IMG/VR virus record: IMGVR_UViG_3300050821_006235
Location: 1-64,000 of that record
DNA: 64,000 nucleotides
Source of the DNA: a virus
Strand: one strand, 5' to 3'
Both the position numbers and the translations under genes were made by a program. The notes under the pieces were generated by a model that was given only the letters and a program-made list of their open reading frames with translations, had not been told where the DNA came from and made no database searches. Below, piece by piece: positions 3,367-50,325 of this stretch (its first letter is position 1; every line of letters starts with the position of its first letter).

Positions 3367-4118
3367 GCGCCGACCCCGATGGCCTCGATCAGCTCGGCGG
3401 CGGCGGACGCGGCCCGCCAGTGCTCGGCCCGGTCTCCGAGGGTCTGCGCGGTCTCCGCACGGATCACGAGCGACCCGAGGGTGAGCCAGTCCGCCTCGCG
3501 GACCTTGGTGAGGGGCTTGGGCACCCACACGACGCAGTTGCCGCAGTCGTCGCCGAACGGGTGGTGGGAGCTGATCCCTGCGAGGACGTTGAGGGCGCGG
3601 TCACGCTGGGCGCTGAGCTTGTCGTCGTCGTGCCAGAACGGGTCTTCGCGCCCTTCCCGCAGCGCGGTGCACGTCACGTCGGCGGACACGAACAGGTCGA
3701 GCCAGTTCTCGCGGGTGCACCCGAAGTCCGTGGTGTAGCGGGTGAACTTCAAGCCCGCCACGGTGGACACGGCGGCGACGGCCGCGCCCTTGGCCTCCAG
3801 CGCCGGGATGTCGGTGTCGTCGAGCAGGTCGGGCGCCAGCAGGCGGAGCAGGTCGAGGGCTTCGTGCTCGTCGAACTCCTCGCCGAGGTAGGCCTCGACG
3901 GTCTCCTCGACCAGGTCGCGGGCCGCCTTGTTGCGGCGCCGCTTGTCGGGCACCCAGTCGGCGATGGGCCGGGTGACGACCTCGCCGACGATGTCGGACT
4001 GGAGCAGGGTCCGCATGACCTCGATGAGGTCGTCGTCGGTGTGGACGGGCTCGACGATGTCGTCCCCGTTGCGGCGGTACCGGATCGCGGTCTCGGTCTC
4101 GGTCTCGGTGATGGTCAT
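3363..4118 (-). CDS. Unknown 251-aa early protein, partner of the nuclease
   Basis: 251 aa. The start overlaps the stop of the small HTH gene (ATGA) and the stop overlaps the nuclease start. The N-terminus has a Thr-Glu run (TETETETA). A late segment with DDCGNCVVW carries a CxxC. Otherwise the protein is acidic and helical. Tight coupling to the PD-(D/E)XK gene suggests both act together on DNA. I do not recognise a family. Confidence 0.75.
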   Translation of the reverse strand: MTITETETETAIRYRRNGDDIVEPVHTDDDLIEVMRTLLQSDIVGEVVTRPIADWVPDKRRRNKAARDLVEETVEAYLGEEFDEHEALDLLRLLAPDLLDDTDIPALEAKGAAVAAVSTVAGLKFTRYTTDFGCTRENWLDLFVSADVTCTALREGREDPFWHDDDKLSAQRDRALNVLAGISSHHPFGDDCGNCVVWVPKPLTKVREADWLTLGSLVIRAETAQTLGDRAEHWRAASAAAELIEAIGVGA

Positions 4119-48386: not shown

Positions 48387-48617
48387 TCACGCCCCCGCGG
48401 CCTTGGTGACGTCCGCGACGATCGGCGCGGCGTCGTCGGCGATCTGCTCAACAGCGGGCGCGTCCTTCACCGCGACGCCTTCCAGCTTGCGGGTGTGGTC
48501 GGCCAGGGCGCGGAAGATGCGGGCGGCATCTGCGGCGAGGGTGTGCCCTTCGTCGGCCAGCCACTGCTCGGCGCGTGCCAGTGGGGACAGGTGGGAGGTG
48601 GGGGCGGGGTCGGTCAT
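48387..48617 (-). CDS. Small lysis-cassette protein
   Basis: 76 aa, ATG at 48617 overlapping the holin stop (ATGA). Helical, no membrane segment, Ala-rich. Between holin and endolysin; function unknown. Confidence 0.65.
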   Translation of the reverse strand: MTDPAPTSHLSPLARAEQWLADEGHTLAADAARIFRALADHTRKLEGVAVKDAPAVEQIADDAAPIVADVTKAAGA

Positions 48618-49159
48618 GACGTGGTCCTCTCGGGAGTTGGCGCGGCGACCGCGCCTGTGATGTGGGAGATGAGGTCGGCGAGTACCGCGTCCTGCGCCTG
48701 GAGAGCGGCGTCCTGGACGGCGAGGTGTGCTTGAAGCTCCACGGCCTCATGGAGGATCGCCTCAGCGTCGGCATACGTCGCCGCTGCGCGCTTGTCGGCC
48801 GCAGCGCCCTGGAGGTTCTGGCCGACAAGAATCGCCGGGAGCAGGACGAGCTGAATCCAGTTCGACGACGCCCAGTTCACGATCGTGGTCGGGTCGCCGG
48901 TGGCGAACGCCGCCTTAGCTGATGCCGACGCCAGCAGGTTGAAGAGGTAGAAGCAGTACATCGTCCCAACGACGCGGGTTATGAGCATCGCCACCCGCCC
49001 GTTGAACCGGGCTATGGCGTTGCCGTCCGGGTGCTGGTCGCCGATTTTGACCGGGCCGGCGTCGCTCCGTGCATGGGCGTGCGGGTGGCGGACGTAGGCG
49101 TACACCCTCTCGCCGAGACCCACCTGGCCGTCGTGGTCGAGGTCGCGGGCATCGTCCAC
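48614..49159 (-). CDS. Putative holin with EF-hand-like loop
   Basis: 181 aa from GTG at 49159, which overlaps a stop (TAGTG). Near the N-terminus DLDHDGQVGLGE matches the 12-residue EF-hand loop (D1, D3, D5, G6, V8, E12). Two membrane segments follow (about ITRVVGTMYCFYLFNLLA and IQLVLLPAILVGQN), then a helical C-terminal tail. The topology and position next to the GH25 endolysin suggest a holin. The Ca2+-binding role is inference. Confidence 0.7.
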   Translation of the reverse strand: MDDARDLDHDGQVGLGERVYAYVRHPHAHARSDAGPVKIGDQHPDGNAIARFNGRVAMLITRVVGTMYCFYLFNLLASASAKAAFATGDPTTIVNWASSNWIQLVLLPAILVGQNLQGAAADKRAAATYADAEAILHEAVELQAHLAVQDAALQAQDAVLADLISHITGAVAAPTPERTTS

Positions 49160-49258
49160 TACGCACCGCCCGGCTGCTGAGGTGCGACCGGTCCGCGAAC
49201 GAGATCCCAGCCCGCCCGGAAATACTTCTGAGCCACCCACGCTGGGTATATCCGATAC
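49159..49258 (-). pseudogene. Stranded C-terminal remnant of an HNH gene
   Basis: In frame to the TAG at 49159-49161, the minus strand reads YPAWVAQKYFRAGWDLVRGP, similar to YPVWCAQKYFAAGWDLVKGP at the end of the HNH gene at 49840. The two copies are diverged, not identical. The remnant has no start; the rightward HNH gene sits between it and the intact copy. Confidence 0.75.
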
Positions 49259-49267
49259 AATTCAGTC

Positions 49268-49846
49268 ATGCCCCTCACCCTCTGCGAGCGCTGCGGAAAG
49301 CGCCGATCTCAAGGCCGGTTGTGCTATCGATGCAATGCGGTGCCAGACCCCGAGAACAACCCGCCGAAACAGTTCGGCTGCACGGGCTCCTGCGAGCGTT
49401 GCGGAAAAGAGAAGTGGATCGTTCGCGGCATCTGCCAGCACTGCGCCCGAGCCATACGCAGGGGAAACGCGCGACGCGGGAGCGAAGAGCACAAGGCGCG
49501 CATGCAGGAGATGGGCGAGCGGCAGCGGGGCGAAGGCAACCCCTCGTGGAAGGGTGGCCGCCATGTCGACAAGCATGGTTACGTGTGGATCCGCGTGACA
49601 CCCGATGATGAGATTGCCAAGGCCATGATCAGGAGCAGTACAAGGCACTACGTGCAAGAGCACCGCCTACTCATCGCTCACCTGATAGGGCGCCCGCTGG
49701 AGAGCATGGAAACGGTCCATCACATCAACGGCGAAAAATCAGACAACCGGATCGAGAATCTGAAACTCTTTGCGTCACAGAGCGAGCATCACAGGCACCT
49801 TCACCTGGAGGCCTGCCCGAACTGCGGATATGCACTTCGTCAGTGA
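49268..49846 (+). CDS. HNH homing-type endonuclease, inserted
   Basis: 192 aa, ATG at 49268, on the opposite strand from the late operon. Zinc pairs CERCGKRR, CYRC, CERCGK and CQHC, then an HNH core: VQEHRLLIAHLIGRPLESME, HHINGEKSDNRIENL. A final CPNCGY. Typical free-standing phage homing endonuclease. It separates the remnant tail at 49159 from the HNH gene at 49840. Confidence 0.85.
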   Translation: MPLTLCERCGKRRSQGRLCYRCNAVPDPENNPPKQFGCTGSCERCGKEKWIVRGICQHCARAIRRGNARRGSEEHKARMQEMGERQRGEGNPSWKGGRHVDKHGYVWIRVTPDDEIAKAMIRSSTRHYVQEHRLLIAHLIGRPLESMETVHHINGEKSDNRIENLKLFASQSEHHRHLHLEACPNCGYALRQ

Positions 49847-50325
49847 TCCGGCGGCCCCTTAACGAGGTCCCACCCGGCTGCGAAATATTTCTGCGCGCAC
49901 CACACCGGATAGGTGATCGCGTGGACGCCGTAGTACCCGGATCTGTGATGCGTGTCGCAGAGCACCAACATGTTGCCTTCGGAGTCCAGCCAGTCCCGCA
50001 GGTGCGCGTCGTCGGCCGCGCCGAGCTCCGGGAAGTCCGCGAGGATCGCGGCGGGGTCCACTGCGTTGACCAGCGCCCACTCAACGTGCCAGTGGTGCGT
50101 TTCCATCTGTGTCGCGCCGTGCGGGTTGCTGACAGGGTCGGCGAGGGTGGACTTGCGGACACCGCAGATCCAGCACGGTTCGTCCAGCTCGCCGATCAGG
50201 TGCTCGTGGACGCGCCGATACTCCGCGGACGCCTTACGCGCCTGATGCTCCGGGTACATCACTGATTCGGTGAGGCGCCGGGTGACCTCGTGGGCGGGGA
50301 CGGGCTTGCCGACCTGGTCGGTCAT
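49840..50325 (-). CDS. HNH endonuclease of the lysis region
   Basis: 161 aa, ATG at 50325 overlapping the previous stop (ATGA). CWICGVRKST, then THHWHVEWALVNAVDPA and NMLVLCDTHH give an HNH-type zinc nuclease. Its C-terminus overlaps the rightward HNH gene by 7 nt. This type is common in actinophage late regions. Role in packaging is possible but not shown. Confidence 0.8.
   Translation of the reverse strand: MTDQVGKPVPAHEVTRRLTESVMYPEHQARKASAEYRRVHEHLIGELDEPCWICGVRKSTLADPVSNPHGATQMETHHWHVEWALVNAVDPAAILADFPELGAADDAHLRDWLDSEGNMLVLCDTHHRSGYYGVHAITYPVWCAQKYFAAGWDLVKGPPDH

Follow-up and report, generated by a model that had tools for sequence, protein, structure and literature searches.

A zinc-finger HNH gene between two 3' ends of one phage gene: probable gene-end replacement by a homing endonuclease

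Homing nucleases that replace the end of the gene they enter are known from fungi, in the WHO elements of yeast (PMC7282813) and in mitochondrial genomes (PMC3630166). Cutting of a sensitive but not of a resistant allele has been studied for WHO (PMC7282813). In the mitochondrial hybrid genes the foreign and native ends share 64-81% DNA identity, and the native end is left on the far side of the insertion (PMC3630166). One-sided homing with illegitimate repair of the break has also been described experimentally for introns, according to a review (PMC2988022). Here we analyze a locus of WHO-like anatomy in a stretch of 64,000 nucleotides of viral DNA, positions 1 to 64,000 of IMG/VR virus record IMGVR_UViG_3300050821_006235 (hereafter the window). 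A nuclease gene, HNHp, lies there between a full-length HNH-family gene, HNHm, and a fragment of the end of HNHm (Table 1). It is likely that HNHp is a free-standing homing endonuclease carrying a divergent replacement for the last 20 or so codons of its host gene, and that it came in by cutting and repair from a donor.

Two ends of HNHm in the window

A first-pass annotation of the window had noticed that the HNH gene at 49840 and the sequence beyond HNHp carry two versions of one tail, and we see the same: the blocks 49852-49911 and 49189-49248 align without gaps, with 42 of 60 base pairs (bp) and 16 of 20 amino acids identical. Their alignment scores 48, against 32 for the best of 300 shuffles. 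Comparing flanks as protein gives the window a score of 100; for mismatched flank pairs the 99th percentile is 43 and the maximum 50. HNHp is flanked by two 3' ends of one gene, and their likeness is far above chance. The C-terminus of HNHm reads YPVWCAQKYFAAGWDLVKGP and ends in ITYPVWCAQKYFAAGWDLVKGPPDH before the stop (given at length, YPVWCAQKYFAAGWDLVKGPPDH and stop). The block in the old tail, read on the minus strand, gives YPAWVAQKYFRAGWDLVRGP, and its frame stays open to the TAG. The annotation had drawn this tail from 49159 to 49258. Its in-frame stop does overlap the start of the holin-like gene, but the 5' limit was set about 10 bp too far: homology begins at 49248, the letters 49249-49258 are non-homologous, and the interval read alone begins in the wrong frame. 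With 70% DNA identity the tails differ, so that this is no simple target duplication, as the annotation had argued. Of nine codons that differ at a single position, eight differ synonymously where 2.3 would be expected, and most of the divergence therefore probably dates from when both tails were functional gene ends.

Table 1. Features of the HNHm-HNHp locus
Feature	Coordinates in the window	Strand	Remarks
HNHm, resident HNH-family gene, host gene of the event	49840..50325	-	161 amino acids; phrog_8048
New 3' end of HNHm	49840..49911	-	homologous block 49852-49911, then PPDH and stop; presumed, by analogy with the MuF loci, to have arrived with HNHp
HNHp, zinc-finger HNH_3 endonuclease gene	49268..49846	+	192 amino acids; putative homing role; stop codon overlaps that of HNHm (ends at 49846 and 49840)
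Segment between old tail and HNHp ATG	49249..49267	+	19 bp; TACAAT at 49256-49261, -12 to -7 of the ATG
Displaced old 3' end of an HNHm allele, YPAWVAQKYFRAGWDLVRGPVAPQQPGGA	49159..49248	-	TAG at 49159-49161
DUF1003-like membrane protein (holin-like) gene	48614..49159	-	GTG start overlaps the TAG of the old tail by 1 base, the shared G at 49159

HNHp matches Pfam HNH_3 (PF13392) at 2.8e-8, with 33.7 bits against a curated cut-off of 24.8, and its N-terminus has Cys pairs of the zinc-ribbon kind. Over the matched part it is 33.7-35.2% identical to the HNH in ShiLan-type insertions of mycobacteriophage methylases, which PMC11855218 reports to be actively homing. No HNHp-type gene was seen at the HNHm locus in seven viral relatives; contig L014 has one some 100 kb from its HNHm locus, and the only counterpart within an HNHm locus lies inside an intein, in L013. 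Patchy presence beside the target gene among relatives is a mark of homing endonucleases, and HNHp is putatively a free-standing one.

HNHm matches phrog_8048 at 1.6e-16 and has no Pfam match; its nearest relatives are 61-73% identical. Every relative aligned keeps a C-terminal YPxW..Q block, so the short tail is an ordinary part of the protein, and its loss would probably matter. The gene is single-copy in all eight distinct external relatives (L002, L003, L004, L013, L014, L018/L019, L020 and L021) and uninterrupted in all of them except L013. Weak second matches in L002 were inspected and are no gene copy. The L013 relative (L013:1590-2666, accession JAKALQ010000045.1, from a metagenome-assembled genome of an Actinomycetes bacterium) is 73% identical to HNHm over residues 6-123 and is split by an intein before Cys123 (Pfam Vint/Intein_splicing). 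Within this intein, on the opposite strand (1812-2600, minus), lies an HNH gene homologous to HNHp, with 34% identity over 128 amino acids, and the frames of the region are open on both strands. In the window HNHm is complete after the insertion and both host-gene frames reach their own stops, so splicing is unnecessary, in contrast to the Hint domain of L013. In L007:2835-3997 an HNHm relative of 36% identity precedes an HNH gene of a different type in antisense (3458-3997, minus), and a relative of the holin-like gene comes next; there the same junction seems to be occupied by another opposing HNH gene.

Other searches returned little. A DNA search of 50,697 phages with the locus, a degenerate tail pattern run against viral contigs, and protein searches of phages with the holin-like protein and the large tail protein all gave no match, and HNHm matched only the L013 genome among 397 actinobacterial genomes. 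An AlphaFold model of HNHm built from 8 sequences had a pLDDT (predicted local distance difference test) of 43 and was not used. The Pfam DUF1003 match of the downstream gene is weak (0.004, below the cut-off), and the name 'holin' is a guess. The TACAAT ahead of HNHp would be compatible with a leaderless transcript; a sigma-70 scan detected no promoter, which leaves this no more than a suggestion.

The same anatomy at other HNH genes

We compared at the protein level both flanks of 180 distinct related HNH genes, the window and the viral and phage loci contributing 148 of them and loci of actinobacterial genomes the other 32. Scores of 50 or more were reached by 8 of the 180 HNH genes, as opposed to 4 of 648 other open reading frames of the same loci (p=0.001). 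At least eight loci besides the window present an old gene end, an HNH gene and a new end joined to an intact gene, a tally that mixes the loci above threshold (eight with the window) with L134 and L081, recognized by hand. Beyond HNHm, six genes are targets, at either the 5' or the 3' end; their names were assigned by eye except for MuF (Pfam).

The 5' end of a MuF-like gene was hit with three different HNHs, in L077 (the same as L110 from a second metagenome), in L151 and in L134, which lies below the score threshold and involves the same gene. Other 5' ends are those of a small membrane protein (L054, the same as L184) and an amidase (L192), both with the nuclease antisense, of an ASCH-like gene (L133) and of a gene that carries the EPHLYRVGKG motif and follows an intein-bearing DnaB (L226). 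A 3' end is involved in L128 (L127 in a second metagenome), in a gene of the tail-completion kind. L081 is a probable case; there the displaced first codons of the neighbor are joined in one reading frame with the nuclease. Some loci are known from single metagenomic contigs; the L077/L110 and L127/L128 arrangements each recur in two separate metagenomes, which argues against assembly chimeras. High-GC flank matches in L032, L034, L078, L031/L033 and L172 were rejected as compositional noise in wrong frames, and L183 (a YopX pair) and L148 were left uncounted as ambiguous.

Which of the two ends is foreign? Over 72 bp of MuF, the nuclease-side ends of L077 and L151 share 75% identity with each other, against 53% (L077) and 51% (L151) with the displaced end on the same contig. 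The displaced ends share 67% (L077) and 59% (L151) with the uninterrupted MuF of L189, which, like L169, carries one copy of the gene and no insertion. In two of the three MuF loci, the new ends group together. This indicates that the HNH-side end of L077 and L151 is foreign and the displaced end resident; the case of L134 is less clear.

Base composition shows a related trend. At 9 of 10 loci, L134 being the exception, the G+C (guanine plus cytosine) content of the new end comes closer to that of the nuclease gene than does the content of the old end. In L151 the values are 0.38 for the HNH gene, 0.36 for the new end, 0.49 for the old end and 0.57 for the surroundings; in L226 they are 0.53, 0.52, 0.61 and 0.64. 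The window shows a small difference in the same direction (0.61, 0.62, 0.65 and 0.67), which together with the analogy to MuF suggests that the present tail of HNHm is the foreign one. At all three MuF loci the displaced start of MuF is overlapped by a zinc-ribbon gene that extends as far as the start of the nuclease gene, so the zinc-ribbon gene is preserved because the old MuF end was kept, and MuF because a new end was supplied. The window offers a parallel, its old tail abutting the start codon of the downstream gene.

Other arrangements were also seen. Two control frames other than HNH genes, L050:283-799 and L131:3845-4223, lie between duplicated coding stretches too, with scores of 87 and 55; they may be nucleases of other types or plain tandem paralogues. 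In L226 (G291:C10:2000-6600, reverse strand) the EPHLYRVGKG gene is flanked by two different zinc-finger HNH genes, directly after the intein-bearing DnaB; this is a putative cluster of homing elements. A small coding module, LIYLWTRDAELSIDKETENYI..DHL..FSDK.RL.M..RIL, occurs in L190:3196-3381, L134:2170-2343 and L128:2285-2452, in settings that include the interior of a split MuF gene, a position upstream of a zinc-ribbon gene and fusion to the end of an HNH gene. It is perhaps a mobile accessory of these elements.

A homing route and its alternatives

The annotation had proposed homing with co-conversion of flanks, the old 3' end being left behind, and both the independent loci of the same anatomy and the MuF ends of L077 and L151 support it. 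During a mixed infection, the nuclease would cut a resident HNHm near its 3' end, perhaps around codon 138/139, and the break would be repaired from a phage carrying both HNHm and HNHp. The long arm in the gene body would recombine by homology, the 3' end of the donor and HNHp would be copied in, and the short arm with the recipient's own last codons would be rejoined on the far side. This rejoining might be illegitimate, as in the one-sided T4 intron events covered in PMC2988022, or might use a matching donor fragment, as for WHO (PMC7282813). The product would be an intact chimeric HNHm with HNHp on the opposite strand. Its new end is presumably spared by HNHp, the sequence divergence protecting it from re-cutting, and the old end would persist as an unused leftover, still setting up where the downstream gene starts.

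In phages, junctions between modules often fall at gene boundaries, and ordinary mosaicism would yield the same end product. An illegitimate crossover would have joined a left module with HNHm and HNHp to a right module starting inside the HNHm 3' end of another phage, the nuclease being a bystander. The window locus taken alone would be compatible with this; however, the anatomy is enriched at HNH genes, it recurs at one MuF gene with three different HNHs, and the composition of the new end matches the HNH gene and not the surroundings, and we consider this explanation unlikely. We give still less credit to tandem HNHm paralogues, the second of which HNHp would have replaced except for its tail by plain deletion. 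Diverged copies would look like what the window shows, and tandem paralogues do occur, the YopX pair of L183 being possibly one. Yet a full second HNH gene in relatives, which the annotation had named as the result pointing to deletion, was looked for and found in none of the eight distinct external relatives; their single HNHm argues against a tandem copy, as does the single MuF of the uninterrupted relatives L189 and L169. Finally, a direct repeat flanks the inserted gene, as would be expected if the target had been duplicated when the gene was inserted and the copy without function had then drifted. The paired ends of the six loci measured have DNA identities of 0.50-0.70, with no near-identical copies among them; pooled over the measured loci, 49 of 58 single-difference codons are synonymous, against 14 expected, a count subject to ascertainment bias; and the new ends of two MuF loci are nearer each other than their own old ends. 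Duplication and drift is, in our view, very improbable.

Several observations weigh against end replacement by a homing HNHp. For this phage's own locus, neither a donor nor an uninterrupted allele was found. The uninterrupted HNHm-holin junction that the annotation suggested searching for did not turn up either: none of the eight relatives has HNHm directly before a holin-like gene. A tail of 20 codons is too short for a tree to settle its affinity or for its divergence to be dated. The new end of L134 is just as close to L189, at 65%, does not group clearly with those of L077 and L151, and is less close to the HNH gene in G+C than the displaced end. About 95% of the surveyed HNH genes have no visible remnant, and the choice of loci by protein similarity biases the count of synonymous changes upward.

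Relation to known end-replacing elements

Whether phage zinc-finger HNH genes commonly move as a nuclease with a diverged rescue copy of one target end, 3' or 5', is to us an evenly balanced question. If they do, they would parallel in nature the engineered home-and-rescue drives. The rescue end would keep the host gene and overlapping genes intact and immune to re-cutting, and displaced ends would be fossils of the cut site and the donor lineage. Selfish genes could thereby spread without breaking their host gene, and a nuclease gene would have a route into a compact viral genome, even at overlapping junctions, that leaves the genes entered unbroken. Displaced ends would also predict cut sites, some 14-35 codons inside the gene end, for nucleases with almost no biochemistry.

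No earlier phage case of end replacement was found in the literature searched, which took in passages of PMC2988022, PMC10448857, PMC12724721 and PMC11855218 and left most subscription journals outside. Like T4-type free-standing homing endonuclease genes, HNHp adjoins its target gene, with flanks that would be co-converted; unlike them, it has a displaced gene end beside it, which was not seen as a natural arrangement in the passages of PMC2988022 searched. With ShiLan domain insertions it shares a homologous HNH with zinc fingers, but ShiLan, as described in PMC11855218, sits inside its host gene, is read through in frame and brings no replacement end.

The fungal elements are closer. The atp6 hybrid of Allomyces macrogynus and the atp6, atp9, cox2 and nad3 hybrids of Glomus sp. 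also contain an endonuclease reading frame inserted with a foreign C-terminal coding end, but they are mitochondrial, use LAGLIDADG or GIY-YIG nucleases and concern C-termini only (PMC3630166). In the WHO elements of Torulaspora and Lachancea (Coughlan et al. 2020, PMC7282813), as here, a new end is swapped in, the old end is pushed to the far side and the nuclease bears zinc fingers. WHO belongs to the yeast nuclear genome, with an intein-derived nuclease, 3' ends of about 400 bp and one main target (PMC7282813), whereas the elements described here belong to phages; they have an HNH nuclease on either strand, ends of about 12-26 codons, 3' or 5', and many targets. Through this comparison the homing endonucleases of phages are connected with fungal elements that replace gene ends.
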